From Deltaproteobacteria bacterium (lineage in GTDB: Bacteria; Desulfobacterota; Desulfobacteria; Desulfobacterales; Desulfosarcinaceae): DNA of 38,173 bases. A program made the position numbers and the translations under genes. This document shows positions 8,114 through 31,881 of the stretch, piece by piece. The first letter of the stretch is position 1; every line of letters begins with the position of its first letter. Under the pieces are notes generated by a model that searched no databases, was not told where the DNA came from, and saw only the letters and a program-made list of their open reading frames with translations. Location of the stretch: positions 1-38,173 of the forward strand of contig JAHLLR010000050.1 in the NCBI GenBank assembly GCA_020444075.1, read 5' to 3'.

Positions 8114-8116
8114 AAT

Positions 8117-9779: not shown

Positions 9780-11866
<2,087 letters not shown>

Positions 11867-11867
11867 A

Positions 11868-15657: not shown

Positions 15658-18600
15658 TCAGCAGCTTTGGTCCGAAATTTTGCCGTGAAGGCGGCGAATT
15701 CTCACACTGAGGACCCGGCAGACATGCAGGGCGATCTGGGGATACTCGCGCACGATTTCCTGAAGTTCCTGCTTGTGCAGGGTCAGGAATCGGGCATCTT
15801 TTTTTACCCGGATGGTTGCCGAGCGGCGGTCATCGCCGAAGAGGGCCATCTCCCCGAAATAGTCACCGGGTCCGATGCTGTCCAATTCGATTTCTTTGTC
15901 CGCGTTGCAGTCTTTGATCACCGCCACTTCGCCCTCCACGATCAGAAAGAGGGTGTCGCCGGTCGCTCCTTCACGGAAAACCATTTCCCCCTCACCGAAA
16001 GACGCCTCCTCGGTGACCGAAGCCACAGCCGCCAGTTCGTTGACGGACAGATCGGCAAAGATCTCGATCGTTTTCAGGTGCAATATTTTATCCGTCAAGG
16101 GAATCGTGGTCGCCGTTTTCATCGCTGCCTCCTGTCCGGACGGGGACTCCGGCCTTTTTTTAAGTAGTTCTATCGCCGCAAGAGATACGTGCGGATTTTT
16201 GTGTTCAGCGAGATCCTGAACCTGCCGGGAATAGTCGGGTGAAAGCGCCATTTGCCGAAGCAGGGTGAGGGTCAGAACCAGGGTGACCCAGTTTCGGCTG
16301 ATCAGCAGGTCGCCGATAAGGGCCGAGGCCGTCGGCTCCGGCAGTCCGCTGGGGAAAAGCCTTCGCCCCGCAGCGATACGCTCTGAAATATCCATGTCAT
16401 CAAAAAGCGGCGCCAGTATGCGGACCAGGCTGTTGTCCAGGATGTCGTCCATCGCCTCCAGGCTGTTGGCCCGCTGGCGCCTGTCCGACGAGAAGATGCT
16501 CCTGGCGACCATGTGCATCCGTCCGGATTGATCCTGGGCGGCCAGTACACGCAGCGTTGTCTTCAGGGTAAACCAGACCCGCTCGTCGAGATGGCCGGCC
16601 AGCAAGTCCCGAACAGTTCCTTCGGGAAGCGTCCGGATCCCACGGGCCTGAATCATCAGCTGGTAGCAGGCCAGGGCCTGAAGCTGAACAAAACGGAAAA
16701 CATCCAGATCCTTAATGGCCATATCCGCCAGCAGACCAAACAGGGCCTCTCTCAATTTTTTGCGGGGAAGCGAAAGGGATTTTACCAGCCGCAGGCTATT
16801 CTGGTAGTCGGCGGTCCTGATCTTCTCGCGGGCAAGCCGGGCAATTTCCCCGGAATCGTCCCCCAGCAAGGCGATCACATTTTTCAGGGAGGCTTCATCT
16901 TCGATCTGGTAGACGTCGAGCACGGCGCGACGCATGCGCGCTTCCGGGTCCCCCAGTCGGGCCTCAACCCGGGGGTTGAGGCCCCTCACGTCGATGGCGC
17001 GCAGGCTGTCCAGAACCAGAACCAGTACGGCATCATCATCGCACGTTGACAAAAGCGTTTTCAACCGCTCAGCAAAGCGCCTGTCCCGGCAGACTCCGGC
17101 AGCGATGATGCCGGCACAACGCCTGCCGGTGTCATCCGACGCCAGCCACGCATCGATGACCGGGCCGAACCGTTCCGGGTCCACCGTGTAAAGGGAGCCC
17201 ACGGCTCGTCCCTTGAGGTCTATCGGTTGAGACGATTCATAAATGCGTCGATTAAAGGGGGCGAACGTCTCCGGCGATATCCGGTGGCCGTTATCGATCA
17301 TGGACACGAGCAACTCGGGCGTCCCCGTATCGATCCGTTCGCTGAATACTTTAACCGCCGCCGATCCCGCCTGATCGGAAAGAAGGTCAATGATCCCGAT
17401 ACGGGTTTGCGCATCCTGCTCTTCCTGAAACGCCGCCAACAGATGGGCGTCCAGGTCCGGAACGGATAGGGCGCCCAGCAGACGGCCATACCACAGCCGA
17501 TTCTCACCTGACGTGTTCCTGAATCGCCGGATGAGGCCCTGTTGAACTTTCTTATCTCGGAAGACCTGACCTATCTCATTGGCGTCCAGGGAGCGAAAGT
17601 CGATCCTGTCGTCTGAAACCAGATCTAAAAGAATGCCGGCATACCGGCGTTTTAAAATAAAGGGAGTGACCACCCAGATGAGAACAAATGGCAGGGCCAC
17701 CAGGGAGAGATAGCGCGGGTGGAACATCAGGGCGTCGGAAAGAAGGATAAGTCCTGATCCGAGAAACAGACCGATGCGCACGACGGTGCCGCGCAGAAAA
17801 GGCCGGATCATGGACCGGTAGGACTCCGGAAACAGGCCGGTCACCACTGCCATAGCCGGGATGTTGATGGTGGTGCGAATGATGTTGGCGGACATGCGCG
17901 CATACATGGCTGCCACGGCATCAAACCGAAAAAGGAAGGTAATAAACACAATCACATAGTTGAAGGGGTGAAACATCAAGGCCACGGCCAGCCCGAAGCG
18001 GTCGTATAGCTTGCCCACGAAGAGCAGGATCACCAGGCTGACGATATTGAGGACACCTCTGAAATAACCGAAAAATTCGATGAGGCCCGATTCGGTGGCA
18101 AACTGCTCGTTAACGGCAAAATTGAACTGATAGTTCATGATGGGGATCACCACGTTGGGCATGAAGGTGAGCACCACGAGGATTTTTACCAGCACGGAGG
18201 ATTTCATCAGCGGCAGCACCGTCTTGAACTCCTCGATTATGGAGGTCCGCTCCGGTTTGCCATCCTCTTTTTTTTGCTGAAAGAGCAAAGTGGGATACCG
18301 CTTTCCCATCGACCGCACGGCCCATGCGCCGGCCAGCGCGGTGACCACGTATATCACCAGAAGGTTGTCCAGATAGAGCCAGCGGGACACCAGCGGGGTG
18401 GCGAAACTGCCCAGAATCTGACCGATGACCCCGCCGGCGGTGATCAGCGGGAAGAGCCGCTTGGACTGCCGGGTGTTGAACAGATCGTTGGCCAGGTTCC
18501 AGAACAACAGCGCCAGAAGCACCTCGTACTGGGATTTCAGCATAAAAAGGGCGGGGTATATCAGGTCGACGCCAAAGGGGATGACGGCACGGATGACCGC

Positions 18601-18891
18601 CACGGAGAGACCGCAGAAAATGAAAAGGCGGGACAGCAACCGGGCTCCGGGAAGGCGGTTCATGAATCCGGTCATGACCCCCATGACGAAAAAGGTCACC
18701 ACGGCGTTGATCATGTTCACGACAGGCATGTATTCCACGCCATAACGCTTTAAAAACGCCGTTTCAGCATAATTATTCAGGAAAATTCCCGAGCTGCGAA
18801 CCAGAAACAGCAGGGCGACGGTCCACATGAACAGGCCGATCTCATCCTCATGAACGTTTAACCAGCGGCTTATCTTTTTATGGATTGCCAA
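15658..18891 (-). CDS. Nucleotide-transporter-like membrane protein with HEAT and cNMP-binding domains
   Basis: This 1077-residue fusion has three parts. Residues 1 to about 430 hold around 12 hydrophobic helices resembling the ATP/ADP-antiporter (Npt/TLC) and MFS folds. About 450-920 is a helical-repeat (HEAT-like) region. Residues 935-1077 form a cyclic-nucleotide-binding domain with a clear phosphate-binding cassette (FGEMALFGDDRRSATI, Glu near 1014 and Arg near 1023). The protein therefore probably senses cAMP or cGMP and adjusts a membrane activity; the transported substrate is unknown. The start is a TTG at 18891 with AAGGG nine bases upstream; no better ATG exists. It lies 107 bases behind the SUMF1-type gene, which follows a nucleotidyl cyclase, so ligand and receptor may be made from one locus. 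Confidence 0.8.
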   Translation of the reverse strand: MAIHKKISRWLNVHEDEIGLFMWTVALLFLVRSSGIFLNNYAETAFLKRYGVEYMPVVNMINAVVTFFVMGVMTGFMNRLPGARLLSRLFIFCGLSVAVIRAVIPFGVDLIYPALFMLKSQYEVLLALLFWNLANDLFNTRQSKRLFPLITAGGVIGQILGSFATPLVSRWLYLDNLLVIYVVTALAGAWAVRSMGKRYPTLLFQQKKEDGKPERTSIIEEFKTVLPLMKSSVLVKILVVLTFMPNVVIPIMNYQFNFAVNEQFATESGLIEFFGYFRGVLNIVSLVILLFVGKLYDRFGLAVALMFHPFNYVIVFITFLFRFDAVAAMYARMSANIIRTTINIPAMAVVTGLFPESYRSMIRPFLRGTVVRIGLFLGSGLILLSDALMFHPRYLSLVALPFVLIWVVTPFILKRRYAGILLDLVSDDRIDFRSLDANEIGQVFRDKKVQQGLIRRFRNTSGENRLWYGRLLGALSVPDLDAHLLAAFQEEQDAQTRIGIIDLLSDQAGSAAVKVFSERIDTGTPELLVSMIDNGHRISPETFAPFNRRIYESSQPIDLKGRAVGSLYTVDPERFGPVIDAWLASDDTGRRCAGIIAAGVCRDRRFAERLKTLLSTCDDDAVLVLVLDSLRAIDVRGLNPRVEARLGDPEARMRRAVLDVYQIEDEASLKNVIALLGDDSGEIARLAREKIRTADYQNSLRLVKSLSLPRKKLREALFGLLADMAIKDLDVFRFVQLQALACYQLMIQARGIRTLPEGTVRDLLAGHLDERVWFTLKTTLRVLAAQDQSGRMHMVARSIFSSDRRQRANSLEAMDDILDNSLVRILAPLFDDMDISERIAAGRRLFPSGLPEPTASALIGDLLISRNWVTLVLTLTLLRQMALSPDYSRQVQDLAEHKNPHVSLAAIELLKKRPESPSGQEAAMKTATTIPLTDKILHLKTIEIFADLSVNELAAVASVTEEASFGEGEMVFREGATGDTLFLIVEGEVAVIKDCNADKEIELDSIGPGDYFGEMALFGDDRRSATIRVKKDARFLTLHKQELQEIVREYPQIALHVCRVLSVRIRRLHGKISDQSC

Positions 18892-18998
18892 TAGGGTTTT
18901 CCCTTATCAGGAGCCGAAACCTCGTCCTCGTCCAGGTCCGTTGCCAACGACGGCGAATGCTGAAGGTCGAGTGTCTGTCAATGGAAACGTCGCCCCCA

Positions 18999-19946
18999 CT
19001 ATTGGGGCTGAGAAGTGTGAATCGGCTGGTCAGGCAATACCATAACCAGCCGGAAACCGGTGTTCTGCAGCCGGCTCATCGGGTGGCCATAGGCCCGGTT
19101 GGCGCTTCGACACGAATATCCCGGACCGAACCAGCTGCCTCCGCGACGCACCCGGTCCTCGCCCGAACTGGTTTGGCAGGGATCGACCACGGAAACGGCA
19201 TCGTAGCGATCGAAGAGGTCTTCGCACCACTCCCAGACATTGCCGTGCATGTCATACAGCCCCCAGTCATTGGGGCGATAGTGCTTCACCGGTGCCGGCC
19301 CGGCGGGTTCCACTCCCGAAGACCGATTGTCGGGAACACAGGCGTCATACCTCATGGGGTTGTTGGCAAACATGGCACGGGCACAGTCAATGGTATTTCC
19401 CCAGAAATAGGCCGTCTTGCTGCCTGCCCGGGCGGCGTATTCCCACTGGGCCTCGGTGGGCAGCCGGTATTGAGCACCCGTCATCGAATTGAGTTTGCGG
19501 ATAAATTTCTTGCAGTCATACCAGGACACCTTGACCACCGGCATATCCGGGGTCCCCTTCTTTCTGGCAAAAAAGCTACGCCCCATGACCGCCCGCCACT
19601 GGTCGACGGTCACTTCGGCGGTCTGCATGTAAAAGGGTCGGGTGATGGTAACCGTATGCTGGATCTCGGACACACCCCGGTTTACTTCTTCGAGGGGGCT
19701 TCCCATAATGAACATGCCGGCGGGGATCAGCACGAACTCCATGCCGATGGCGTTGGTCACCGTTTTTTCAGGGATGCCGGCCGCCATTGCACGCTGAAAT
19801 GGAAACAGACACGCCACAATCAACAGGAAACGACAAAAAATGACGATTCCCGAGTGCGATTGACGACTCCCCGGCAGGCCACGGGAAGTAAAAAGCCCGG
19901 CCCGGGCAGAGGGATATGTGCTTGCGCAAAACCGATGGGATTTCAT
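18999..19946 (-). CDS. Secreted SUMF1/formylglycine-enzyme-like protein
   Basis: This 315-residue protein has a basic N-terminus and a hydrophobic segment at about 33-55 that looks like a signal peptide or anchor. A SUMF1 (FGE-sulfatase) domain follows from about 66 to 302. Recognisable blocks are IPAGMFIMGS, VTVDQWRAVMG, PVVKVSWYDCKKF, YRLPTEAQWEYAARAG, DMHGNVWEWCED and VRRGGSW...GFRLV. True formylglycine-generating enzymes carry two cysteines in the GGS(Y/W)xCxxxxC stretch. Here the first is missing (GGSWFGPGYSC), leaving only C279. It is therefore probably not a sulfatase-activating enzyme and more likely a binding or other oxidative member. GAGGA lies eight bases before the ATG, and the gene begins 10 bases after the cyclase stop, implying co-expression. 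Confidence 0.82.
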   Translation of the reverse strand: MKSHRFCASTYPSARAGLFTSRGLPGSRQSHSGIVIFCRFLLIVACLFPFQRAMAAGIPEKTVTNAIGMEFVLIPAGMFIMGSPLEEVNRGVSEIQHTVTITRPFYMQTAEVTVDQWRAVMGRSFFARKKGTPDMPVVKVSWYDCKKFIRKLNSMTGAQYRLPTEAQWEYAARAGSKTAYFWGNTIDCARAMFANNPMRYDACVPDNRSSGVEPAGPAPVKHYRPNDWGLYDMHGNVWEWCEDLFDRYDAVSVVDPCQTSSGEDRVRRGGSWFGPGYSCRSANRAYGHPMSRLQNTGFRLVMVLPDQPIHTSQPQ

Positions 19947-19956
19947 TCAATTATCC

Positions 19957-21402
19957 TCAGGCAGCCCGTATCCAGCGGTCCAGCAGCGCCCTGTCCTGCT
20001 GATCCATGTAAGTGATATGCAACCGATAAACGGGCGGTTGCCCGTTATTTTCCATGCCGATCACCTTGGCGTAGACGTCTGAAAAACAGTGCGCTTCCTC
20101 GCAGAACGTAAATAGGAGCTTTACATTTGTCAACGCCGCCAGGGATTCCGGGACATGAACGATAAATGTCGATGCGTTGAGCTGGTGCGTTTCCCCAACA
20201 ATGGGTCCGGCAACCACTTTTTTGCCGTCCATATGCCACAATTCAAAAGGCAATCGGATCTCCACCAGCGGATCAGGCGGTTTCAGGGCGAAGCGAATGT
20301 TGTATGGCCCGCCGATAGCTGTCACCGGGTAGCAGACCAGGGGTCGTTTGAGTCCCTTCATCATGACGGTCATGGGCGACTCTGCCGTCACCTGGGCGCT
20401 GACCCGTGCGTAAGTGGCCTCACCCACCAGCACCTGCCCGCCGACGGTATTGGATTCAATGCGCGAGGCGACATTGACCACGGCACCGACAATACCGTAT
20501 TTTGTGCGGGCTTCGGAACCCAGGTTCCCCACGACCACCGGACCGGTGTTGATCCCGATCCCCATCTCCAGAGGCGGCAGCCCATCGGCAACCAACGCCT
20601 GGTTCAAGCCGGCCAGGGTCTGCTGCATAGCCAGGGCACAGGCCACGGCCCGAGTCGGGTCGTCGGCTTTTTCTTCCGGGATACCGAACACGGTGAGAAT
20701 GGCATCGCCGATAAATTCGTCGATGACGCCGTCATATCGCTGAATGACCTGGGTCATGGCTTCCAGGTAGCGGTTGAGAATACGGACCATTTCTTCCGGA
20801 TCTCTGGAGTCGGACAGGTCTGAAAAGCCCCGCAGGTCGGACATAAGCACGGTCACCGTCTGCCGACGGCCGCCGATCCGCCGCCCGTCGGGAGACTCCA
20901 GTATTTCGTCGACGATCTTGCGGCTCAGATAACGGCCGAAGGTGTCCTTGATAAAATTGACCAACTGAAGCCGCTGGTTGGACACATTCAGGATGGCCTC
21001 CAGCATTTTGCCCCGGGTGGAAACGATCTCCCGGATTTCGACGGCCACATCCTCGTCCAGCGGAACATTGTCCACCTCAGGATGGGCAACATCCAACCGG
21101 CGATTACCCTCGGATATGGCTTCCATGGGCCGGATAATTTTTCTTTCCAGAAAACGGCGCAGGGTCACCATCATGAACAGAAGAATAACGACCACCAACA
21201 GAATGATTCGCAGCGCATACCACATAAGATCCTCGCCGCTGGCATTCTCAGAGGCCATCTTATAGACAACGGACCAAACCAGCAGGACCATCTCGATAAC
21301 GAGAATGCGCCAAAATACGCCGGCCAGCAGGATCTCGCGTATCCCCTTGTCCTTCGTGGGCGTTTCAGATTGTGGGGTCGGCGCTTCCGTTTTCATGGGC
21401 AT
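19957..21402 (-). CDS. Membrane class III nucleotidyl cyclase with PilZ-like tail
   Basis: This enzyme converts ATP or GTP to cAMP or cGMP. The 481-residue protein has two membrane helices (about 28-48 and 62-80), a linker helix, and a cyclase catalytic domain at about 180-365. The domain carries metal-binding D189 (SDLRGFS) and D233 (IGDAIL), plus N310 and R314 for catalysis. The base-selecting positions are E229 and G303, instead of the Lys and Asp/Thr of adenylyl cyclases, so cGMP production is possible. The last 110 residues (IRLPFELWHMDGK..., ending YRLHITYMDQQDRALLDRWI) resemble a PilZ domain. There is no good ribosome site before the ATG at 21402; a second ATG is at 21396. It leads the SUMF1 and transporter genes. 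Confidence 0.85.
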   Translation of the reverse strand: MPMKTEAPTPQSETPTKDKGIREILLAGVFWRILVIEMVLLVWSVVYKMASENASGEDLMWYALRIILLVVVILLFMMVTLRRFLERKIIRPMEAISEGNRRLDVAHPEVDNVPLDEDVAVEIREIVSTRGKMLEAILNVSNQRLQLVNFIKDTFGRYLSRKIVDEILESPDGRRIGGRRQTVTVLMSDLRGFSDLSDSRDPEEMVRILNRYLEAMTQVIQRYDGVIDEFIGDAILTVFGIPEEKADDPTRAVACALAMQQTLAGLNQALVADGLPPLEMGIGINTGPVVVGNLGSEARTKYGIVGAVVNVASRIESNTVGGQVLVGEATYARVSAQVTAESPMTVMMKGLKRPLVCYPVTAIGGPYNIRFALKPPDPLVEIRLPFELWHMDGKKVVAGPIVGETHQLNASTFIVHVPESLAALTNVKLLFTFCEEAHCFSDVYAKVIGMENNGQPPVYRLHITYMDQQDRALLDRWIRAA

Positions 21403-21519: not shown

Positions 21520-22503
21520 TTAAAAAAGAAAACAGGAAACACGGTGGCCGGCGTCCAGGGTCTTCAGCGTCGGGGCTTGCAGATTGCAGGTATTGTCCAC
21601 GGCCAGACCGCAGCGGGGGTAGAACAGGCAGTGGTCGGTGGACGGTCGGGGGCGTTCGGTCAGGAGCAGGGTGCCGAATCGCCTGTGACCGCTGCTGCCG
21701 AAACGGGGATGGGCGTCCAGCAGCGCTTTGGTGTATGGGTGCCGGGGATGCATGATGGTTTCCTGGGCCGACCCCTGCTCCACCAGTCGCCCACGGTAGA
21801 TCACGCCCACCCGGTCGCACAGGTTCCTCGCCGCCGCCAGGCTGTGGGTGATGAACAGCATGGTGACGCCGAAGGTCTCCCGCAAACGGTTCAGCAACTG
21901 GAAAATCTGAAAGGAGATCGAGGCATCGAGCATGGAGGTCGGCTCGTCGGCGATCAGGAACCGGGGCTCAAGCACCATGGCCCGGGCGATGGCCACCCGC
22001 TGGCGCTGGCCCCCGGAAAGCTGATGGGGGTAGCGCTCCAGATACATTTCCGGCGGCGTCAGTCCGGCGGTTTCGAGGGCCTCGCAAACCCGAACCCGGC
22101 GCGCCACCCGGTCCCCGAGGCCATGAATGATCAGCGGTTCGCACACGGTGTCAAAAATGGAAAAATGAGCGTTGAGGCTCTGGTACGGATCCTGGAAGAT
22201 TACCTGGACCTGTTTCGTGAATTCCAGTCGTGCCCGTCCTTTGAGTCCCACGATGTTCTGCCCGTCAAGCTGAATACGCCCGCCATCAGGGGTTTCCAGC
22301 CCTACGATCAGCCGGCTGGCCGTGGTTTTACCGCTGCCGCTCTCACCCACCAGGCCGAATATCTCCCCGGGGTTGATCTCCAGGCTGATGTGGTCCAGGG
22401 CGACAACAGGGCTTCCGGTTTTCCCGAAAAGGGATTGCCCGGCATGATAGACCTTGGTCACGTCGGTCATCGAAAGGAGGGGAGCGATACCGGCCGTATC
22501 CAT
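21520..22503 (-). CDS. oppF: Oligopeptide/dipeptide ABC transporter ATPase (OppF/DppF type)
   Basis: This is one of the two cytoplasmic ATPases that power the peptide importer. The 327-residue protein has Walker A GESGSGKTT, the OppF-type QVIFQDPYQSLN, signature LSGGQRQRVAIARA, Walker B FLIADEPTSMLD, and the TMLFITHSLAAAR switch region. The C-terminal oligopeptide-family tail follows, with HPYTKALL and a four-Cys segment (DHCLFYPRCG...TC...SC). I chose the ATG at 22503 (AAGGGG upstream, one base after the oppD stop); the frame extends to 22599 inside oppD. It is the last gene of the six-gene run. Confidence 0.9.
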   Translation of the reverse strand: MDTAGIAPLLSMTDVTKVYHAGQSLFGKTGSPVVALDHISLEINPGEIFGLVGESGSGKTTASRLIVGLETPDGGRIQLDGQNIVGLKGRARLEFTKQVQVIFQDPYQSLNAHFSIFDTVCEPLIIHGLGDRVARRVRVCEALETAGLTPPEMYLERYPHQLSGGQRQRVAIARAMVLEPRFLIADEPTSMLDASISFQIFQLLNRLRETFGVTMLFITHSLAAARNLCDRVGVIYRGRLVEQGSAQETIMHPRHPYTKALLDAHPRFGSSGHRRFGTLLLTERPRPSTDHCLFYPRCGLAVDNTCNLQAPTLKTLDAGHRVSCFLF

Positions 22504-22504
22504 G

Positions 22505-23479
22505 TCAGCGCCCCTTTCCGGCATACGGACAGCGCACCCGGTGCGTCCCGGTAAGGTCGACCCACCCGGCCTGTTCCCGCCGGCAAACGACCGTAGCATC
22601 CGGACAGATCAGATTTAACGGGCAGCCGCCCGTGGCAGCCGCCCCGTTTTCACCGTTAGTAACAAATATCCCCGACAGGTCGGCCGGCTGGTCCGACAGG
22701 GTGAGCAGGGACCCCACCAGCATGCGGGTGTAGGGATGGCCCGGGCAGTCCAGCACCTCCTGCCGGCTGCCGTATTCGACCATGCGCCCCGCGTACATGA
22801 CCCCGATATGGGTGCACACATCCGCCACGACGGCGAGATCATGGGAAATGAAGATCATGCCGAGGTTCATCTCCTTTTGGAACGTGCCGATGGCGCTCAG
22901 GATCTGATTCTGGACGATGACGTCCAGGGCTGTGGTGGGCTCGTCGGCTATGATCAGTGACGGGTTGCAGGCCAATGCCATAGCAATAATCACCCGCTGG
23001 CGCATTCCCCCGGAGAACTGGTGGGGATAGTCCTGAAGCCGGCTTTCGGGAATTTTGACCAGGTCAAACAGGGATCGGGTCCGGTGGGCCACTGCATGAC
23101 CGGACAGATCCGGTTCATGGGTGATGATGGCTTCCGAGATCTGGTCCTGAACTCGATGCACCGGATTCAGGGCATTCATGGCGGCCTGAAAGATCATGGA
23201 AATCCGACGCCACCGGATCTGCCGCATTCTCTCTCCGCTGACGGCGATCAGGTCCTCGCCTTCAAAACGGGCCTGCCCGGAAACGATCGTCGCATTGGGC
23301 GCCAAAAGTCCCATGAGGGCCATGCCGATGGTGGTCTTCCCGCATCCGGATTCGCCCACCAGGCCCAGGGAGCCCCCCCGGTCCACGCGAAAGGAGACAT
23401 CGTCCACCGCCATGGCAATCCCTCCGGCGGTCCGGTAGCCGATGCTCAGGTTGTTCACTTCCAGCAGGGCCGGGGTCAC
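22505..23479 (-). CDS. oppD: Oligopeptide/dipeptide ABC transporter ATPase (OppD/DppD type)
   Basis: This is the second ATPase of the importer. The 324-residue protein shows Walker [11 protein letters not shown] (41-50), the [15 protein letters not shown]-loop region typical of OppD/DppD, signature [14 protein letters not shown], Walker [13 protein letters not shown] and [12 protein letters not shown]. The C-terminus has [12 protein letters not shown] and four cysteines (C286, C292, C299, C317) spaced like the metal/FeS-binding tail of DppD proteins. Its start overlaps the oppC stop by four bases. Confidence 0.9.
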
Positions 23480-24432
23480 GGCGTTGTCTCCTCTTCCCGC
23501 AATCGTGGATCCAGTACGTCATCCATGGCCCGGCCGGTCATGTAAAAGGCCATGGTGATCAGGGAAATGCAAATTCCCGGCGGCAGCATCCAGTAAGGGG
23601 CCTGAAACATGTGGCCCGTCTTCCACACCCACTGGAGCATCATCCCCCAGCTGACCGTACCCGGGTCACCGAACCCCAAAAACGCCAGGGCAGCTTCGAT
23701 GATAATGGCCGAAGTGACCCTGAAGGTCATGTAGAGCAGTGCCAGGGGCATGACGTTGGGCAGAATATGCCTGAATATGATGCGCAGGTGCGAAGCGCCG
23801 GCCACCCGTGCCGCCTCGATGAAGGGCCGGTGCCGCAGGGACAGGGTCTGAGACCGGATCACCCGGGCCACCCCGGGCCATCGGAACAGGGCGATCATCA
23901 ACACGATGATCCAGATATTCAACTGGCCGAACAGCGCCGACAAAAGCAGCACCACCAACAGGGTGGGCATGACCATGATCATATCCGCCAGCCGCATGAG
24001 AATCAGGTCGGTGTGTTTTCCCGCATATCCGGCCACCATCCCGATGGTGGTGCCGAACAGGATGCTGATCAGCGCCGATGAAATGCCCACCATGAAGGCG
24101 ATGCGGGCGCCGGCCAGCAACTGGCTGAAGATGTCCCGGCCGATAAAATCCGTGCCCAGCCAGTGGCGCAGGCTGGGACCGGTGCTGTAGGAAATCTGCG
24201 GGTCCACACCGGTCATGGGATGGTACATGGGGTCAACCCATTGCGGGATAAAGCTGGTCGTGGCCATGAGGGCAAAAAGGACCAGCAGGGCCATGCCGAT
24301 TCGGCCGATGGTGTTTTTCCGGTACACCCTCCAGCCGCCCAGAAAACGATCCACCCAATGGGGCAAGGCTCTGCCGGCTGCCATGCCGGGGGTAGTTCCC
24401 GTTTTCGGGGATGGGAGATTTGCGTCGGTCAT
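23476..24432 (-). CDS. oppC: Peptide ABC transporter permease (OppC/DppC type)
   Basis: This is one of the two membrane permeases. The 318-residue protein has an N-terminal helix (IGRIGMALLVLFALMAT), then the LGTDFIGRDIFSQLLAGARIAFMVG segment typical of OppC. About five further helices follow, and the ATPase-contacting EAA loop EAARVAGASHLRIIFRHILPN. PGICISLITMAFYMTGRAMDDVLDPRLR near the end is also characteristic. It starts one base after oppB ends. Confidence 0.9.
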   Translation of the reverse strand: MTDANLPSPKTGTTPGMAAGRALPHWVDRFLGGWRVYRKNTIGRIGMALLVLFALMATTSFIPQWVDPMYHPMTGVDPQISYSTGPSLRHWLGTDFIGRDIFSQLLAGARIAFMVGISSALISILFGTTIGMVAGYAGKHTDLILMRLADMIMVMPTLLVVLLLSALFGQLNIWIIVLMIALFRWPGVARVIRSQTLSLRHRPFIEAARVAGASHLRIIFRHILPNVMPLALLYMTFRVTSAIIIEAALAFLGFGDPGTVSWGMMLQWVWKTGHMFQAPYWMLPPGICISLITMAFYMTGRAMDDVLDPRLREEETTP

Positions 24433-24433
24433 A

Positions 24434-25411
24434 TCAGTACCGTATCCTCGGATCGAGGTAGGCGTAAAGCACGTCCACCACCAGGTTGGCCACCAGCACC
24501 ACGATGGCGATAATCAAAAAGGCGGCCTGAGCCAGCGGATAGTCGCTGTGGCTGACGGAAAAAACCAGTTCGCGCCCGATGCCCGGCCAGGTGAACACCG
24601 TCTCGGTCAATGCCCCGCCGTTGATCGAAAATGCCAGGCTCAGTCCTACGCTGGTCACCACGGGAAGGGCTGCGTTGGGCGCTGCGTGGTGGTCCCGGAT
24701 GGTCTTTTCCTCCAGGCCTTTGGCCCTGGCGGTGATGATGTAGTCGTCCTTGAGGGTATCCAACATACTGCTGCGCATCACCAGCAGGTAACTGCCGAAA
24801 TGGATCAGGATGAGCGTCATCAGCGGCAGGGCCATGTGGTGGAGCACATCCAGGGCTTTGGCCAGCCAACCGGCACCCGGGTCAATCCACACATCCGGTG
24901 AAACCATTCCGGTGATGGGGAACCAGCCGACCCGATAGGCGAAAAACCAGATCATGATCAGGGCCAGCCAGGGCAGAAACAAGGTATGGCAGAAAAGCGC
25001 CCCGATAGTCAGCAGTGTGTCGGTTCGCTGACCGCGTTTCCAGGCGGCAATTTTTCCCAGGAACACCCCCAGCAGGGCTGACAGGAGGATAGACGTCGTG
25101 AACAGCAGAACGGTGTTGGGCAGCCGGTTCATCAGGATATCGATCACCGGTTCGCCGTAGTGGAAGGAGACCCCCATGTTGCCGGTGGCCACGTTCTTCA
25201 GGTAGTACAGGTACTGCGTCCACAGGGGCTGGTCCAGGCCCATGCTCTCCATGAGCAGACGGGCGTCCTCAGGGGTCATGGAAGGATCCACCATCCGGGA
25301 AACCGGATCCCCCGGTGCCAGCCGGAAAAGGACGAAGAGCACCGTCATGATCACGAAAAAGATCACGGCGATCTCCACCAGCCGTCTGAGTACGAATCGT
25401 TTAAGCCCCAT
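24434..25411 (-). CDS. oppB: Peptide ABC transporter permease (OppB/DppB type)
   Basis: This is the first membrane permease. The 325-residue protein starts with LKRFVLRRLVEIAVIFFVIMTVLFVLFRLAPGDPV, the standard OppB start. It has six helices, the EAA loop YIITARAKGLEEKTIRDHHA, and ends in VLYAYLDPRIRY, a typical OppB terminus. It overlaps the binding-protein gene by 11 bases, consistent with coupled translation. Confidence 0.9.
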   Translation of the reverse strand: MGLKRFVLRRLVEIAVIFFVIMTVLFVLFRLAPGDPVSRMVDPSMTPEDARLLMESMGLDQPLWTQYLYYLKNVATGNMGVSFHYGEPVIDILMNRLPNTVLLFTTSILLSALLGVFLGKIAAWKRGQRTDTLLTIGALFCHTLFLPWLALIMIWFFAYRVGWFPITGMVSPDVWIDPGAGWLAKALDVLHHMALPLMTLILIHFGSYLLVMRSSMLDTLKDDYIITARAKGLEEKTIRDHHAAPNAALPVVTSVGLSLAFSINGGALTETVFTWPGIGRELVFSVSHSDYPLAQAAFLIIAIVVLVANLVVDVLYAYLDPRIRY

Positions 25412-27122
25412 CGCTGCTCACCGGTTTGACCTGGCACATGGACCAGATGTTGCCGATCCCTTCCAGCATCTCCACCCAGCCTTCGAAGCGGTCCCTGCGC
25501 ACGGCCTCCACCACGGAAGGTTTGTACAGGGGTATATAGGGCAGGTCGCGGGCGATCAGTTTCTGCATCTCCATCACCAGCGCCTGCCGCTTGACAGGGT
25601 CCATTTCGGAAATAGATCGGTCGGCCATTTCATCGAAGGCGGAGTTGCGGTATCCGCTCATGTTCCAGCCCCGGGATTTGTCGTTGGCGGAATGAAACAG
25701 GTTGCGCACATAGTCCGGATCGAGGCCCAAATGCCCGTATCCCAGGATGAAGGCGTCAAAGTCATGGTGGCCTTTTATCTGCTCCAGCATGGAGGAGAAG
25801 GCCATGGGCCGGGCGTAGGCGGGCATGCCCAGTTCCCTGAGCCACTCCTGAATCATCAATCCGCTGGTGGCCCGGTGCGGGTCGTAGTCCGCCGGCGGTG
25901 TCAGGATGGTGAACCGCTTCATGGGTTGTCCCCCGGGCAGCCGGATCTCTCTGGCGGCCTGAAGGTTGCCGGCGGCATCCACCGGCGGCACCGCCCAGCT
26001 GTAACCCGCATCGACGAGCACCTGGTAGGCGGCTTTCAGCCGGTTTTCCCGGCTCATGCCGTCTCCGTATCGCGGCAGATCGGTGCAGCACCAGAAACGG
26101 TTTTCCTCCGGAACCACCGAGAACATCTTGGTGCCCTGGCCCTGGAGGATCCGCGAGACAATAAATTTTTTGTCGATCATATACGCCACGGCCCGGCGCA
26201 GGGCCATGTCGTTGAAGGGTGGCCGCCGCAGGTTGAACCCCATGAAGTAGAGGGCGCTCTTCTCGTTGGTGAACAGGCGGATCTCCTTCCGCCGACTCAG
26301 ATCGGCCATATAGCCGGGCTGGATGGGCCACCATAACATGTCGATGTCACCCTTTATAAGGGCCAGTATGGCTACATCCGACGTACCGAACACGGTGTAG
26401 ACGAGATCGTCGACGAACGGCCCCAGGGTGCGGCCGCCGATGGTTTTGCCGATACCGAAAAAATGGGGATTCCTCTTCAGGTGCAAAAATGCCCCCCGCC
26501 GCCACTGCTCCAGCGTAAAGGGTCCGGTACCCACGGGATGCTGCATGCGGTGATTGACCAGTGCGGTCAGCGGCTTCTCGGTAGTCTGCGCTTTTTCGGC
26601 AAAGTCAGCCCACTCCTTTTCCTGGACGATGGGGGTCGACAAGGTCCCGGTGAGAAACGCCGCCATGGGTTGTTTCAAGTAAAATCTCACGGTCCGGGAA
26701 TCCGGCGTTTCAATCCGTTTGATAAAATCCCAATCTGACGCATAGCGGGGGACCTTGAAGGATTGAATCAGGCTCCCGGTAAAGGCCACATCCCGCGACG
26801 TGAAAGGGGTATCATCGGACCATCGGGCTTCCCGGAGCGTCACGGAATAGGACAAGGTCTGCGCATCATACACCGGCATGGATTCAGCCAGCCAGGGCAC
26901 CAGATCCAGGGTGTCCGGATCATACACGTACAGGGGCTGGTAGATCAGGGAAAGCACCTTGCGGGAATTGGCGTCGCTGGCCAACCATACATTGAGCGTC
27001 CGGGGTTCTTCAGCCAGACCGATGTTCAGGACGTGGTGAGTATTCTTCTCATGGCAGGCCGTCAGCATAACCGCGGTCAACAGCAGCAGGACCCCTCTTC
27101 GCCAACAGTTGCGGCCATCCAT
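25401..27122 (-). CDS. Peptide-binding lipoprotein (family 5 solute-binding protein)
   Basis: This is the extracytoplasmic receptor of the importer. The 573-residue protein has a lipoprotein signal: basic start, LLLLTAVML, and lipobox LTAC with Cys23. The OppA/DppA-type fold follows. LNIGLAEEPRTLNVWLASDANS, LVPWLAESMPVYDAQTLSYSVTLREARWSDDTPFTSRDVAFT and DMALRRAVAYMIDK are familiar blocks. The central RFWCCTDLPRYG and the C-terminal EMQKLIARDLPYIPLY also fit. The ligand cannot be read from the sequence. It starts two bases after gshB, so the binding protein is made together with a peptide-bond-forming enzyme, which hints that the ligand may be a gamma-glutamyl or other modified peptide (inference). 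Confidence 0.87.
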   Translation of the reverse strand: MDGRNCWRRGVLLLLTAVMLTACHEKNTHHVLNIGLAEEPRTLNVWLASDANSRKVLSLIYQPLYVYDPDTLDLVPWLAESMPVYDAQTLSYSVTLREARWSDDTPFTSRDVAFTGSLIQSFKVPRYASDWDFIKRIETPDSRTVRFYLKQPMAAFLTGTLSTPIVQEKEWADFAEKAQTTEKPLTALVNHRMQHPVGTGPFTLEQWRRGAFLHLKRNPHFFGIGKTIGGRTLGPFVDDLVYTVFGTSDVAILALIKGDIDMLWWPIQPGYMADLSRRKEIRLFTNEKSALYFMGFNLRRPPFNDMALRRAVAYMIDKKFIVSRILQGQGTKMFSVVPEENRFWCCTDLPRYGDGMSRENRLKAAYQVLVDAGYSWAVPPVDAAGNLQAAREIRLPGGQPMKRFTILTPPADYDPHRATSGLMIQEWLRELGMPAYARPMAFSSMLEQIKGHHDFDAFILGYGHLGLDPDYVRNLFHSANDKSRGWNMSGYRNSAFDEMADRSISEMDPVKRQALVMEMQKLIARDLPYIPLYKPSVVEAVRRDRFEGWVEMLEGIGNIWSMCQVKPVSSDGA

Positions 27123-27124
27123 GC

Positions 27125-28135
27125 TCAGACCCGCTTTCGGTGGGATTTGGGGCCGATCCCTTTGACTTTGCCCTCGATGAAATCAATGACTTTGCGCTCG
27201 AGGCGGTCATCGTTCAACCGGTTGATCCGGGGGATGCCTCCCGGGCTGACGCAATTGACCTCCACCAGCTTGTCGGCAATGATGTCGATGCCCACGAAAT
27301 AGAGTCCGTCGGCGACCAGCTTGTCCTTGATGGTCTCGCAGATATGCCGCTCACCTGCCGTCACCCGGTGGGCGAACACCTCGCCGCCGGCGTGGACATT
27401 GGTGCGGAAATCCCCTTTTTTGGGTTTCCGGCGCATGGCGCCGATGATCTCCCCGTTGAGCAGCAGGATCCGAATGTCTCCGTCCTGCTTGACGCTCTTC
27501 AGGTACTCCTGCACCATGATCGGCTCGCGGTGGGCGTAGGATTCGTAGGCCCGCACGTAGTAGTGGATCAGCGAATTCAGGTTCGTCCGGTCCCGGGTGC
27601 TCACCTTGATCACGCCCTCACCCCCGAACCGCTGCAGGGGTTTGACCACCATGGCCCCGCCGAAATCGTCGATGATTTTGCGCAGGCGGGAAGGATCCCT
27701 GGATACATGCGTCTCGGGGATGATCTCCGGAAAGTTGAGAATGTAGAGTTTGCTGTTGCCCAGGATCTGGCCGGTGGTGCTGTTGAGGATGAAGACGCGG
27801 TTGTTGGCGGTCTGCAAAAATTCCATGATCTGGTAGTTGAGCGGCGGGTTGCTGCGCAGAAACAGGGCATCGAGTTGGGTGACGGCTTCGAAAATAAGAT
27901 GGTCCTGTTTGGTGCAGCGGATAATCGCCTGCCAGTATTCCGCCATGCCCAGGCCCGGTGTTACGGTTATGTTGCGCATGCGGGCCACCACCTGGCCGTC
28001 CCGTATGTAGACATCGTGGGGTTCTAAAAAATAGATCGCATGTCCCCGCTCGTTACTTTCATACATCAGGTGGCTGGTGGTTTCGTTTTCAGGCTGGATG
28101 GCTTCCAGCGGATCCATCAGGTAAGCGATCTTCAT
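27125..28135 (-). CDS. gshB: Glutathione synthetase-like ATP-grasp ligase
   Basis: Glutathione synthetase joins gamma-glutamylcysteine to glycine using ATP. This 336-residue protein has the GshB N-terminal fold (MKIAYLMDPLEAIQPENETTS) and the ATP-grasp blocks MVVKPLQRFGGEGVIKV and MVQEYLKSVKQDGDIRILLLNGE. It also has RTNVHAGG and the metal-binding end LVEVNCVSPGGIPRIN. It is slightly longer than the E. coli enzyme (316). No gamma-glutamylcysteine ligase is in the window, and its place at the head of a peptide-transport operon is unusual, so a related non-glutathione substrate is possible. Upstream lie a good promoter and a small AAGGAC/GTCCTT palindrome (28139-28151) that includes the likely ribosome site, about ten bases before the ATG. 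Confidence 0.8.
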   Translation of the reverse strand: MKIAYLMDPLEAIQPENETTSHLMYESNERGHAIYFLEPHDVYIRDGQVVARMRNITVTPGLGMAEYWQAIIRCTKQDHLIFEAVTQLDALFLRSNPPLNYQIMEFLQTANNRVFILNSTTGQILGNSKLYILNFPEIIPETHVSRDPSRLRKIIDDFGGAMVVKPLQRFGGEGVIKVSTRDRTNLNSLIHYYVRAYESYAHREPIMVQEYLKSVKQDGDIRILLLNGEIIGAMRRKPKKGDFRTNVHAGGEVFAHRVTAGERHICETIKDKLVADGLYFVGIDIIADKLVEVNCVSPGGIPRINRLNDDRLERKVIDFIEGKVKGIGPKSHRKRV

Positions 28136-28177
28136 GGCAAGGACCGTCCTTTGTTTGTATGCATGGCAGGATGATTT

Positions 28178-28206
28178 AATTTACTTCAATTTTAGCCAAT
28201 TAGCAA
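28178..28206 (-). promoter_or_regulatory. Probable promoter of the gshB-opp operon
   Basis: On the minus strand TTGCTA (28201-28206) and TAAATT (28178-28183) are spaced by 17 bases. Transcription would start near 28170, about 35 bases before the gshB ATG. The A/T-rich spacer fits a sigma-70 promoter. Confidence 0.5.
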
Positions 28207-28254
28207 CCCTGAGCGATTGGGCGGCAAAGCAGGGGGCCAACGGGACCTTTGCAA

Positions 28255-28283
28255 TTGACACCATCGAACAAATTCCCTATGGT
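28255..28283 (+). promoter_or_regulatory. Probable promoter of the GNAT/ATP-grasp/PP-loop operon
   Basis: A perfect -35 box TTGACA (28255-28260) and TATGGT (28278-28283) are separated by 17 bases on the plus strand. The start point would be near 28290, leaving a leader of about 220 bases before the ATG at 28510. It sits back to back with the gshB promoter, so a shared regulator site between them is possible. Confidence 0.5.
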
Positions 28284-28509
28284 TCAGGCCATAGGACGGT
28301 TCGGCAAGTTTTTTTGTGGTCAACCCCTCCGATTCGGGCAAAAGGCGGCAAAAAGGGTGGAACATGCCGATGACGAACGCACGCACCGTGACTACATCCT
28401 TCGGGAGAATGAACGACTGAAGCAGAAAGGCGCCGGTTTACCGCCGGAAAGAGGTCGTTGAGGTTGTCACCGGAACTCCAATCGATTAGAGATTGCTTTC
28501 CCGAAAAAT

Positions 28510-29745
28510 ATGAATGTTACCGCCCCGTTTTCGATTCTGCTGGTTCAGCCGCCCACGGCATTGTCCGCCGGGCCGCCATCGACCATGGCCCAGGTCAGGA
28601 AGATCTTTTCCGATCGGTCGATCCAAACCCACCGATGGGATGCTCACCCGGACGGGCTCTCCCCTATCGGCAAACACGTGCTGGATCTTTTAGAGCAGTT
28701 ATCAGCGCGTCACGACACGATCCATCTGGTATGTCCGGATGAAATCGAACCGGCCGGGTTAAAAGACCTGCTGATGGTGATTAACCAGCGAAGGCCCCGG
28801 TTGCGTCTGTCCCTTTCCAGCACCATCGATCGTTCTATCGAGTCTGAAATCATGACGGTGGACAATGACAGCGCCCTCGTCCAAATCCAATGGCACGTCA
28901 GGGGGCCGCTGCCGGATGTTGGCTTCTTCAAGGCATTCTCCGGGGCCGGCATCTGGAACCACCTGGTGGTCCATGATGCAGATGCTTCATTAAAAACCTG
29001 CCGGACCATCGCCAGCCAGCCGAACATCATCCACTCCTGGGAGACAACCGGCACCGTCGATCGGGGCTGCCATGCCAATGAAGATTATGGTCAGGTGCGT
29101 CCGTTGCCCGGCCGGCCGCTGTGGCAGGCGGTGAACGACCCGGTGAACCGGTTTTTACTGGTGGACCGGTTGACCAAAGACCGGGTGCTGCGCCTTCGCC
29201 TTGATGATGATCAGGAAAGCCTCTATGCACTCGGCGATGCCCTGGAATACCACTTCCTCCCGCCGGACCGGCTGCCGGCCGGATACCTGGACGAAATCTG
29301 CGCCATGGTGGCAGCCGGGGGCACGGTGGCGACCACCCATGTCCGGTTCAATCTGGAGCGGGCTCATCTCATCGGCTATGTGCAGGAAAAAGGCGTCATC
29401 GTCGGCAATTCCAGTCTCAAGAACCCCAGGCCCGAATACATCCAGGATGTCCGCCGGCAATCAGGATTGGACCTCACCGGATACCTCGAGCGGGGATACA
29501 CCTCGGTGCGTCCCGAATACCGGGGGCTGGGCATCGGGACACGACTTTTGGAAGGACTGACCCGACGGGCCGGCGACCGGAAGATCTTTTCCGTCATCGC
29601 CGAGGACAACGCGGCCACCAAGGTCATCGCCATGCGCAACCGCACCCGCCAGGTTGCCACCTATTTCAGCGAAAAGGCCGGCAAGCCGGTGGGCATCTGG
29701 ATGCCGGAGTGGATGATCGACACCCAGGAAGGAAAGACCTCGTAA
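28510..29745 (+). CDS. GNAT-domain protein with unknown N-terminal domain
   Basis: This 411-residue protein joins two parts. Residues about 235-400 form a GNAT acyltransferase-like domain with the acetyl-CoA-binding motif RPEYRGLGIGTRLLEGL (334-350) and a following helix DNAATKVIAMRN. Residues 1-230 start with FSILLVQPP, like the N-terminus of B12-binding/radical-SAM proteins, and read as an alpha/beta fold. They lack a CxxxCxxC cluster, and I do not recognise a family. A GNAT next to an ATP-grasp ligase suggests N-acylation of an amino acid or peptide, or an acyltransferase-type peptide-bond step. There is no strong ribosome site at the ATG; the frame is closed upstream at 28459. The stop abuts the next start. 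Confidence 0.75.
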   Translation: MNVTAPFSILLVQPPTALSAGPPSTMAQVRKIFSDRSIQTHRWDAHPDGLSPIGKHVLDLLEQLSARHDTIHLVCPDEIEPAGLKDLLMVINQRRPRLRLSLSSTIDRSIESEIMTVDNDSALVQIQWHVRGPLPDVGFFKAFSGAGIWNHLVVHDADASLKTCRTIASQPNIIHSWETTGTVDRGCHANEDYGQVRPLPGRPLWQAVNDPVNRFLLVDRLTKDRVLRLRLDDDQESLYALGDALEYHFLPPDRLPAGYLDEICAMVAAGGTVATTHVRFNLERAHLIGYVQEKGVIVGNSSLKNPRPEYIQDVRRQSGLDLTGYLERGYTSVRPEYRGLGIGTRLLEGLTRRAGDRKIFSVIAEDNAATKVIAMRNRTRQVATYFSEKAGKPVGIWMPEWMIDTQEGKTS

Positions 29746-30654
29746 ATGGCCATTCGCATCGGCATCATCACGGTTCAGGAACCCGCCTACCACCCCAACC
29801 GCCGCCTGCTGGAAGCAGCCCGCCAGACCGGGCACGAGGGCATTCTCATCCATCCCTATCGCCTGTGGCCGACAACGGCGGCAGGCCAACTGGAAGTGAC
29901 CGGAGAACATTCCGCTCGCCTGCCCCAGGTGGTGCTGCCCAGGCAGGGAGCCCAGATCGGCGATGCCTGTCTGGCCCTGATCCGCCAGTTCCAGCTCATG
30001 GGCGTGTCGCTGGTCAACGATCATGACGCGGTTTCCGTCGCCCGCAATAAATTTCTCACCCAGCAGGTGCTGACCGCCGCCGGCCTGCCCTGCCCCGACA
30101 CCATTTTCGTCAACGACCCATCGGGTTTTTTTCATGCCGTTGATCAAATGGGCGGCTACCCGGTGGTGGCCAAACAGGTCAGCGAGCGTCAGGGAGACGG
30201 GGTATTACGGATCATGAACGGAAACGATGCCCGTCAGCGGGCCCTGCCCGCATTGGATCGCCGCCGGGGCCTCATGGTCCAACGCTATCTGCCGCCCGAA
30301 AAGCGCCGGGACTTTCGAGCACTGGTCATCGGCGGAGGTTTGGTCTGTGCGGTGTCCCTTATCCCGGCCCAAGGCGATTTTCGGGCCAATTACCACCTGG
30401 GAAGTGACATCAAGGCTACGGCATTAGCTCCAGAACTCGAACAAACCGCCGTCACTGCCGCGGCGGCCGTGGGATGCGATGTGGCCGGGGTGGACATGAT
30501 GGTGGACAAGGATGACCGCCCGTTTATCGTGGAGGTGAACTACTCGCCGGGGTTCAAAGGCCTGGAGGCGGCCACCGGCCTGGACATCGCCGGCCGCATC
30601 GTCCACTTTGCCATGGATCGGTACCGCGAAAAGCGAGAAAGCATGGGCCTTTGA
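29746..30654 (+). CDS. RimK-type ATP-grasp ligase
   Basis: This ATP-dependent amide-bond-forming enzyme is of the RimK/LysX/CofF group, which adds an amino acid to a peptide, protein or small acid. The 302-residue protein has ARNKFLTQQVLTAAGLPCP, YPVVAKQVSERQGDGV (nucleotide-binding loop), MVQRYLPPEKRRDFRALVIGG, and FRANYHLG. It ends with VAGVDMMVDKDDRPFIVEVN and SPGFKGLEAATG, which carries the metal-binding Glu and Asn. The closeness to RimK in all blocks makes the class sure, but not the substrate. It starts directly after the GNAT stop (TAA-ATG) and is followed after one base by the PP-loop gene, so the three are surely one transcript. Confidence 0.88.
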   Translation: MAIRIGIITVQEPAYHPNRRLLEAARQTGHEGILIHPYRLWPTTAAGQLEVTGEHSARLPQVVLPRQGAQIGDACLALIRQFQLMGVSLVNDHDAVSVARNKFLTQQVLTAAGLPCPDTIFVNDPSGFFHAVDQMGGYPVVAKQVSERQGDGVLRIMNGNDARQRALPALDRRRGLMVQRYLPPEKRRDFRALVIGGGLVCAVSLIPAQGDFRANYHLGSDIKATALAPELEQTAVTAAAAVGCDVAGVDMMVDKDDRPFIVEVNYSPGFKGLEAATGLDIAGRIVHFAMDRYREKRESMGL

Positions 30655-30655
30655 G

Positions 30656-31780
30656 ATGAGACTTTCCGACCTTCAAATGAAGAAAAACGGCGGCCTGATC
30701 CGTGCCGCGGCTACGGTGACCTTCGAGGACAGCGACCAGCCGGCGAAGGAGATCTTCATCGAAACTGAAACGGCTTATGCTGAATCGATCTTCCCCAATC
30801 CCCATGCCTTTGCCGTGGGCTGCATTATCCCTGCCCTTCACTTCGCAGAACGGCGCCTGGCTCTCGATGAAGCCATCTGTCCCCGGCTCAAGGAGGGACT
30901 GGAAACGGTCATGGTTATCATGCATCACTGGACCGACGGCCGATTTCAGCCGCTGAGCATCGATGCGCCGCTGGTCAGAACAGCTCTGCAGGATGGAAAG
31001 AATCGCCACGCAGGGATCTTCCTGTCCGGAGGCATGGATTCGCTGGCCGCCCTCAAGCGGATCAAAGACGGCTATGCCCCGACCCATCCCGCGTATCCCA
31101 GGGACGCCCTGCTGGTCCACGGCTTCGACATCGGCGGGGTGGTCGAACGGGGCGCCAAATACCACGTGTTCGAACGCGCCAAGGCGGCCATGCGACCCGT
31201 GGCGGCCGACGCCGGCCTGAACCTCATTCCCATTTATACCAACATCCGCCACCTGTGCGACAACCGCGACCTGTGGCTCAACCAGTTTTTCGGGGCCGTG
31301 CTCGCCGCCGCCGTCCACGCCTTCTCCCCGCGAATCAACCTGGCCTGGCTGGCATCCTCCTACGACATCCTCCACCTGCACCCCTGCGGCTCCCACCCCC
31401 TGCTGGACCCGGAATACGGCAGCACCGATCTTCAGATCCGCCACCGGGATGTCGGGTTGTCCCGTATGGAAAAACTGAAAATTGTATCGGACTGGGATGT
31501 GGCCTTCCAGAATTTCCGCGTCTGCCTGGCCAACGTGCCGGAAAAGCTCAACTGCGGTCGTTGTGAGAAGTGCGTGCGCACCATGCTGGAACTGGAGGCC
31601 CTGGGCCTGCTGGGCAAGACCCGGGCATTTGAGGACGATTCAGTCGACCCGGCATGGTTGGATGCCTTCAGCATCACCATCCGTGTACGCGAGCCCTTTT
31701 ATAAAGAGCTGGTTGAACCGCTTCGGAGCCGAGGCCGGGGTGACCTTGCGGAAAAGATCGAAGAGAAACTGATCGATTAG
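30656..31780 (+). CDS. QueC-like PP-loop ATPase with zinc-type cysteine cluster
   Basis: This 374-residue protein has an ATP-pyrophosphatase (PP-loop) motif LSGGMDSLAAL at 123-133. An N-terminal domain (1-115) has no recognised family. Near the C-terminus is a four-Cys cluster: C290, then NCGRCEKC with C300, C303 and C306. PP-loop plus this CxxCxxC layout is that of QueC (7-cyano-7-deazaguanine synthase), which activates a carboxylate with ATP and makes an amide/nitrile. The rest is diverged and longer, so it probably activates another carboxylic acid or forms an amide, as Asn-synthetase-type domains do. The ATG at 30656 begins one base after the ATP-grasp stop. An upstream in-frame start at 30608 lies inside that gene and is less likely. 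Confidence 0.8.
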   Translation: MRLSDLQMKKNGGLIRAAATVTFEDSDQPAKEIFIETETAYAESIFPNPHAFAVGCIIPALHFAERRLALDEAICPRLKEGLETVMVIMHHWTDGRFQPLSIDAPLVRTALQDGKNRHAGIFLSGGMDSLAALKRIKDGYAPTHPAYPRDALLVHGFDIGGVVERGAKYHVFERAKAAMRPVAADAGLNLIPIYTNIRHLCDNRDLWLNQFFGAVLAAAVHAFSPRINLAWLASSYDILHLHPCGSHPLLDPEYGSTDLQIRHRDVGLSRMEKLKIVSDWDVAFQNFRVCLANVPEKLNCGRCEKCVRTMLELEALGLLGKTRAFEDDSVDPAWLDAFSITIRVREPFYKELVEPLRSRGRGDLAEKIEEKLID

Positions 31781-31881
31781 CAGCAGGTTGAACGGCGGCC
31801 AGCCAGCCGTTCCGTGGGATCATCACCGCCAACGCCGACTCGTGGGATTAGATCCCAATCTCCAGAAAAAGCGGCGGTGCT

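Follow-up and report, generated by a model that had tools for sequence, protein, structure and literature searches.

The window analysed here is a 38,173-nt sequence (contig JAHLLR010000050.1) within the 5.59-Mb, 173-contig genome assembly of a deltaproteobacterium of the Desulfosarcinaceae. Our subject is a divergent locus in this window, at which a GshB-like ligase and a peptide-type importer are encoded back to back with an acetyltransferase, a RimK-type ligase and a PP-loop protein, hereafter PPL. We find that the two arms are inherited together across the class, and tentatively propose that they serve a pathway for a small peptide-like metabolite.

Gene content of the locus

An initial annotation of this DNA had described the two arms, and its coordinates and gene types agree with the open reading frames (ORFs) and with NCBIfam and Pfam. 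The minus-strand run reads gshB-SBP-oppB-oppC-oppD-oppF and the plus-strand run, divergent from it, GNAT-RimK-PPL. The features are as follows.

30656..31780, plus strand: PPL, a PP-loop protein of 374 residues with SGGxDS and C(x)9CxxCxxC; no NCBIfam match
29746..30654, plus strand: RimK-type ATP-grasp ligase of 302 residues, over the TIGR00768 cut-off; Pfam RimK and Rimk_N
28510..29745, plus strand: GNAT acetyltransferase of 411 residues, Pfam Acetyltransf_1, with an N-terminal extension of middle length
28136..28509: divergent intergenic region of 374 bases
27125..28135, minus strand: GshB-like ATP-grasp ligase of 336 residues; Pfam GSH-S_N and GSH-S_ATP
25401..27122, minus strand: family 5 solute-binding protein (SBP), Pfam SBP_bac_5
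24434..25411, minus strand: OppB-type permease (NCBIfam/Pfam)
23476..24432, minus strand: OppC-type permease (NCBIfam/Pfam)
22505..23479, minus strand: OppD-type ATPase (NCBIfam/Pfam)
21520..22599, minus strand: OppF-type ATPase (NCBIfam/Pfam)
19957..21402, minus strand: membrane nucleotide cyclase with a Guanylate_cyc domain
18999..19946, minus strand: FGE/SUMF1-domain protein (PF03781, E 1e-48) with a probable signal sequence, judged by eye
15658..18891, minus strand: NTT-HEAT-cNMP protein (hereafter NTT) of 1077 residues, with an ATP/ADP-translocase-like membrane domain, HEAT-like repeats and a cNMP-binding domain

The plus-strand genes had been described as lying head to tail with gaps of 0-1 base, and this is what we measure: the GNAT stop codon abuts the RimK start (0 bases), and a single base separates the RimK stop from the PPL start. 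The intergenic region said to be common to both arms is likewise present, and holds one sigma-70-like match (28255-28283), although such matches are not enriched over 27100-31900 (three, against a shuffle mean of 2.1). Because the oppF ORF overlaps oppD, its true start probably lies further inside than the ORF start. While the genes listed in the initial annotation are all there, the locus was drawn too narrowly, overlooking the NTT, FGE-like and cyclase genes at 15658-21402, which are part of a recurring island. Elsewhere in the window, at 4931-11591, lies a second-type F-ATPase gene run that by eye, from the ORFs only, resembles the so-called N-ATPase.

Co-inheritance and recurrence

We searched 291 genomes of the class, in which PPL has a match in 66 and a strong match (E ≤1e-90) in 58. 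Using thresholds of 1e-60 for gshB, 1e-15 for GNAT, 1e-80 for NTT and 1e-120 for SBP, the partners were counted in 62, 57, 65 and 61 genomes respectively. All five genes occur in 52 of the 67 genomes that have any of them, and the 58 PPL genomes include 57 with NTT, 56 with gshB and 54 with SBP. For pairs among the five, the Jaccard index ranges from 0.83 to 0.94 and the Fisher p value, uncorrected for relatedness, from 6e-46 to 2e-58. As a control for relatedness, PPL labels were shuffled 20000 times within the nine genera of mixed PPL status (65 genomes). Within these genera, PPL is shared with gshB in 29 genomes, GNAT in 26, NTT in 29 and SBP in 27, whereas the shuffles averaged 16.5, 13.9, 16.8 and 15.4 and reached at most 24, 22, 24 and 24; for every partner p is about 5e-5, the lowest value that 20000 shuffles allow. 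PPL and gshB lie more than 1 Mb apart on one contig in three genomes (G064, G131 and G110), so that the association does not require proximity.

Fifteen genomes depart from the all-five pattern, several being incomplete assemblies. One (G135) holds GNAT and NTT, two (G141 and G205) NTT and SBP, and one (G222) only a distant gshB (40%). A further genome, G030, carries pieces of PPL and GNAT interrupted by stops and a short RimK remnant (locus L064, 9269-10607), and at our thresholds it has no match for gshB, NTT or SBP. This is an apparent parallel decay of the module genes; the genome is listed as 98% complete, and being a draft may contain sequence errors. That the two arms belong together, as the initial annotation had supposed, is thus borne out by co-inheritance both in the full set and within the nine genera, and because they are co-inherited we conclude that they very probably form one functional unit.

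In a scan of genome contigs, whose genomes partly overlap with the 291 and are not an independent sample, 87 PPL relatives were found and 80 loci kept. Most belong to Desulfobacteraceae, Desulfobacterales, their genera or unplaced Deltaproteobacteria, with a few elsewhere, including Geothermobacter hydrogeniphilus, Dethiosulfatarculus and metagenome-assembled genomes (MAGs) of Deferrisomatales and Thermoflexales. The closest relatives of the window's PPL (77-90% identity) are in Desulfosarcina records. Record titles suggest many saline sites, a trend for which no background set was compared.

For the initial annotation, a failure of the plus-strand genes to occur together in other genomes would have counted as refutation, and clearly this is not what we see: of the 72 loci whose upstream sequence extends for at least 1.2 kb, 65 have RimK ahead of PPL in the same orientation (within 100 bases in 54), the seven others being L129, L136, L141, L143, L144, L149 and L151, and GNAT lies upstream in 53 of the 58 loci with at least 3 kb. 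In the 24 loci flanked by 9 kb or more on each side we find gshB in 17, SBP in 13, oppB in 9, NTT in 17, the FGE-like gene in 14 and cyclase relatives in 15, where the cyclase and oppF counts take in paralogues. A second sample, of 40 further genome stretches plus the window (41, of which seven or eight were picked as distant or partial PPL relatives), gives RimK family genes in 34, GNAT in 32, NTT in 25, FGE-like in 21, gshB in 17 and SBP in 16. Beyond PPL the window continues with a galT-like, a 193-residue and an MFS gene, which occur in 3, 2 and 2 of the 80 loci, each in one of the 24 well-flanked loci; here, then, PPL is the last gene of the recurring unit. A chance juxtaposition of housekeeping genes is contradicted by this recurrence and by co-inheritance, including that inside the nine genera; we found nothing in its favour and give it next to no chance.

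A smaller form of the island exists. In L141 and L144, NTT, GNAT and PPL form a run in which GNAT and PPL overlap by 4 bases and gshB is nearby; no RimK match was found within these stretches, the rest of the two genomes not having been searched for it. By tblastn, L143 and L136 have the same partners. This form, found in Geothermobacter and similar loci, would make do with a single ATP-grasp ligase beside its one acetyltransferase and its one presumed amide synthase. A gene of the FGase family (N-formylglutamate amidohydrolase, PF05013) lies nearby in L141, L143 and L144 (E 1e-17 in L141), which would suit an N-acylated amino-acid product without proving it. In L076, from a Desulfosarcina MAG, PPL is immediately followed by a gene weakly related to FGase (29%; 11238-12011). 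Between GNAT and RimK in L042 (3907-9149) lie genes that by eye encode a sigma-54 type regulator, a thioredoxin-like protein and a multihaem cytochrome-like protein.

The enzymes and transport proteins

PPL exceeds the cut-off of no family searched, NCBIfam giving no match at all and Pfam QueC (PF06508) 13.5 bits against a gathering threshold of 22 (E 0.051). Like QueC, QatC and Cap9 it has the SGGxDS loop and a four-cysteine cluster, both present in 60 of 60 aligned homologues, with C290, C300, C303 and C306, zinc-type cysteines, invariant. The spacing is C(x)9CxxCxxC in all 60, unlike the C(x)8CxxCxxC of QueC, which occurs in none, and the QueC motifs YxQxHxxE, VPxRN and YPDC, as given in parts of a 2026 survey of PF06508 members (PMC13329287), are each absent from all 60. 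Aligning the PPL profile with ten QueC proteins (hhalign) joined only 57 columns around the cysteines (E 0.0095, probability 4.3), and the window genome has a separate QueC over the cut-off. The QueC-type zinc cluster of the initial annotation therefore stands as a four-cysteine cluster, but by these tests membership of QueC does not. PPL also resembles QatC, as portrayed in passages of PMC12424860, in having sequence flanking the core on both sides.

The AlphaFold model of PPL has a mean pLDDT of 93.4. Among its fold matches, none of them significant, are asparagine synthetase (E 0.073), the thiolase NcsA (0.085) and, at rank 26, the nitrile synthetase ArtA (0.71), with deacetylases, helicases and further chains mixed in; QueC is absent among the 50 matches listed. 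Searching the PDB by sequence, PPL alone found nothing and its profile one chance-like match (E 1.2). In partial accounts of these enzymes, AsnB-like and ArtA/PesC amide or nitrile synthetases act on a carboxylate or amide with ATP, as PPL may do; unlike them, PPL has a cysteine cluster and no detected glutaminase domain. We propose that PPL is an ATP- and ammonia-dependent synthase of a carboxylate amide, or a nitrile, and regard amidation of a carboxylate as the simplest supposition for the family as a whole. The product could also be a nitrile because, on those same accounts, QueC converts an acid, and ArtA an amide, into one.

Distant PPL relatives (24-44% identity) raise the question of envelope decoration, in which PPL would amidate carboxylates of a glycan or surface peptide, GNAT, RimK and the GshB-like enzyme would build the peptide, and SBP-Opp would recycle fragments. 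These relatives lie near polysaccharide genes, in tandem pairs in L050, L051, L052 and L151; Pfam neighbours are an ABC-2 exporter and PGA_cap (L050), a sulfotransferase (L052), and a pyruvyl transferase, glycosyltransferases and O-antigen ligase (L151). Among plasmid loci, drawn from 17 records, a pyruvyl transferase adjoins the PPL relative in two of three examined; in the third (Nostoc), polysaccharide genes lie about 5 kb away, beyond transposases. The tandem pairs of L050, L052 and L151 are possibly an amidation pair for surface glycans, and the FGE-like island member, with its probable signal sequence, also suits an envelope role. However, no GNAT or RimK match was found near the distant PPL type, and no glycosyltransferase was recognised by eye in the recurring clusters of the window-type island, which had no family search. 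We think it unlikely that this island decorates the envelope. Amidation of sugar acids would fit the distant relatives in polysaccharide loci, and we count it in favour of a carboxylate-amidating PPL.

The GNAT protein matches Acetyltransf_1 at 24.5 bits (cut-off 20.7), limited to residues 291-368 of 411. Homologous ORFs of GNAT (ACETYLTRANSFERASE; n = 64) fall into 18 of at most 230 residues, 17 of 231-460, which is the window's class, and 29 longer ones; some are clipped by contig ends, and a 1649-residue ORF in L136 is surely a wrong frame join by the simple ORF script. Because the short form occurs in many genomes, the N-terminal extension is not needed for the association. In the long proteins of L061 (11321-13315) and L083 (6859-8853) some 500 residues precede the GNAT domain; by eye only, the initial ILLVHPP and a stretch reading YDANLDF are reminiscent of B12-binding radical SAM proteins and might mark a degenerate origin of that kind, though no B12-binding or radical-SAM Pfam domain was found in L061 or L047. 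The fold was examined on the 664-residue L083 homologue rather than the window protein (model with mean pLDDT 89.2), and acetyltransferases dominate the 50 matches listed, with ArsN, RimI, Naa50-type and many other GNAT enzymes following the best two. Several of these enzymes acetylate alpha-amines.

RimK exceeds the cut-off of family TIGR00768 (164.8 against 143.4 bits) and falls below that of the S6-specific equivalog PRK10446 (149.7 of 331 bits). The name of the NCBIfam model records that E. coli-type RimK acts on ribosomal protein S6, and QueC-fold Cap9 acts on a partner protein, as QatC is thought to (in passages of PMC12424860), a precedent for protein modification, in which RimK would attach glutamates at the end of a protein, and PPL would act on a protein N-terminus in the manner of Cap9 and possibly QatC. 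Yet no small partner protein is widely recurrent among ORFs of at least 90 residues: those of 116, 121 and 105 residues recur in 6, 4 and 4 of the 41 loci, and by eye resemble ribosomal protein, DsrE-like and thioredoxin-like genes. PADLOC has no match for PPL, RimK, gshB or GNAT, and co-inheritance of an importer suits a small molecule better, leaving protein modification quite improbable. An anti-phage role, by analogy with QatC and Cap9, was dropped with zero PADLOC and zero phage matches.

The GshB-like ligase resembles glutathione synthetase over its full length (PRK05246, PRK12458), and a Pfam gshB-like gene together with a GCS2 gene in two of ten genomes of this kind (G118 and G137) might indicate ordinary glutathione metabolism with unrelated neighbours. 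Unlike GshB, however, it lies below every NCBIfam glutathione synthetase cut-off (284 of 408, 266 of 272 and 245 of 299 bits), and gshB tracks PPL. The gshA models PF04107 (GCS2) and PF04262 (Glu_cys_ligase) are silent in the window genome, GCS2 being absent from eight of the ten genomes and Glu_cys_ligase from all ten (a third model, PF08886, was silent in controls too and is uninformative). That neither of these two gshA models responds in the window genome makes glutathione improbable as the product; its synthesis is rejected as the main role, and the reading as a whole has very little probability.

The SBP and permeases score on nickel, opine and peptide importer models, all below cut-offs. 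NTT exceeds the cut-offs of PF03219 (35.9 against 21 bits) and PF00027 (73.3 against 27.5), falls short of HEAT_2 (23.5 against 27.7) and shows a sub-threshold MFS match; that it is a cyclic-nucleotide-gated transporter is a guess from these domains. A second NTT-like protein of similar length and 30% identity is encoded outside the window in the same genome (G000:C81:19099-22221). One might suppose that the product is a peptide metallophore or signal that leaves the cell through NTT and returns by way of SBP-Opp. Nickel and opine scores, the TLC-transporter and MFS similarities of NTT and its standing as the most constant partner of PPL point this way, but the TLC family is named for ATP/ADP exchange, and inspection of the recurring clusters by eye, without a family search, picked out neither an outer-membrane receptor nor a metal regulator. 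We judge this explanation improbable.

A proposed pathway and its product

Our own reading, which we hold tentatively and as somewhat short of probable, is that the co-inherited module makes, and probably recovers, a small peptide-like metabolite capped at both ends. Gene types, gene order, recurrence and co-inheritance are observed; what we infer is the reactions and their sequence, the product, and the parts played by transport and cyclic nucleotide. An amino acid would be acetylated on its alpha-amine by GNAT; two ATP-dependent carboxylate activations, one by RimK and one by the GshB-like enzyme, would each attach a further amino acid; and PPL would adenylate the last carboxylate and add ammonia to give an amide. 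NTT may be the module's transporter or sensor, responding to the cyclic nucleotide that the neighbouring cyclase would make, while SBP-OppBCDF would import the product or a precursor.

The initial annotation had likened the locus to the N-acetylglutaminylglutamine amide (NAGGN) pathway, and in its three-step logic that comparison is reasonable: N-acetyltransferase, ATP-grasp ligase and amide-forming enzyme. What we draw on here beyond the name of model TIGR03103 and a passage on AsnO is general background to the pathway. In the module, unlike that pathway, the parts are separate proteins, the ligases are RimK- and GshB-like, an importer and NTT are added, and the presumed amide step falls to a PP-loop protein with no detected glutaminase domain. 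By NCBIfam and Pfam, PPL also lacks the asparagine-synthase domain of an AsnO-type amidotransferase, a result for this one protein and not for the genome at large. In 33 of the 291 genomes the TIGR03103 enzyme passes its cut-off; the window genome is not among them (best E 1.4e-9).

Several observations weigh against the capped-metabolite reading. Twelve of the 58 PPL genomes also have a NAGGN synthase above its cut-off, G158 and G288 have partial matches below it, and the association is weakly positive (p 0.019); the two systems coexist, so that a straight replacement of the NAGGN pathway is unsupported. Three genomes (G105, G223 and G259) hold gshB, NTT and SBP with no PPL or GNAT match. Five of the 58 loci with at least 3 kb upstream lack a GNAT match (L134, L139, L148, L149 and L150), four of them keeping RimK, and in L149 a PPL of 50% identity stands alone among genes of ABC-F type, TPR/response-regulator, histidine-kinase and chemoreceptor kinds. 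Two ATP-grasp enzymes beside one GNAT leave the number and order of residues open. The best two PDB matches of the L083 GNAT model are tRNA cytidine acetyltransferase, which leaves the substrate class wide, and the PPL model has no PDB match at E 0.001, its best (0.073) standing amid unrelated chains. Finally, a simple solute pathway offers no evident role for NTT, the FGE-like protein or the cyclase.

A bolder version of the capped-metabolite reading is that PPL founds a new family of ammonia-using synthases of peptide C-terminal amides or nitriles, and that the island makes an unseen N-acetylated peptide amide or nitrile, which an NTT-type transporter gated by cyclic nucleotide would move and an Opp importer of its own would retrieve. 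Taken together these claims are doubtful; if true, they would amount to a second, independently assembled route to an N-acetylated peptide amide, here mainly in Desulfobacterota. In the literature searched, in which subscription papers were mostly beyond reach, we recognised no paper describing this gene set, and in the main text of PMC13329287 neither 'ATP-grasp' nor 'acetyltransferase' occurs.

The module contains an enzyme family over no searched family cut-off, with an obvious candidate reaction, and ties HEAT/cNMP-fused NTT proteins to biosynthetic genes. Since genomes with and without it occur inside one genus, the metabolite can be sought by comparison. Across Desulfobacterota five families follow a single pattern of presence and absence, sometimes despite wide separation on the chromosome, and this points to a pathway with an as yet unnamed product.

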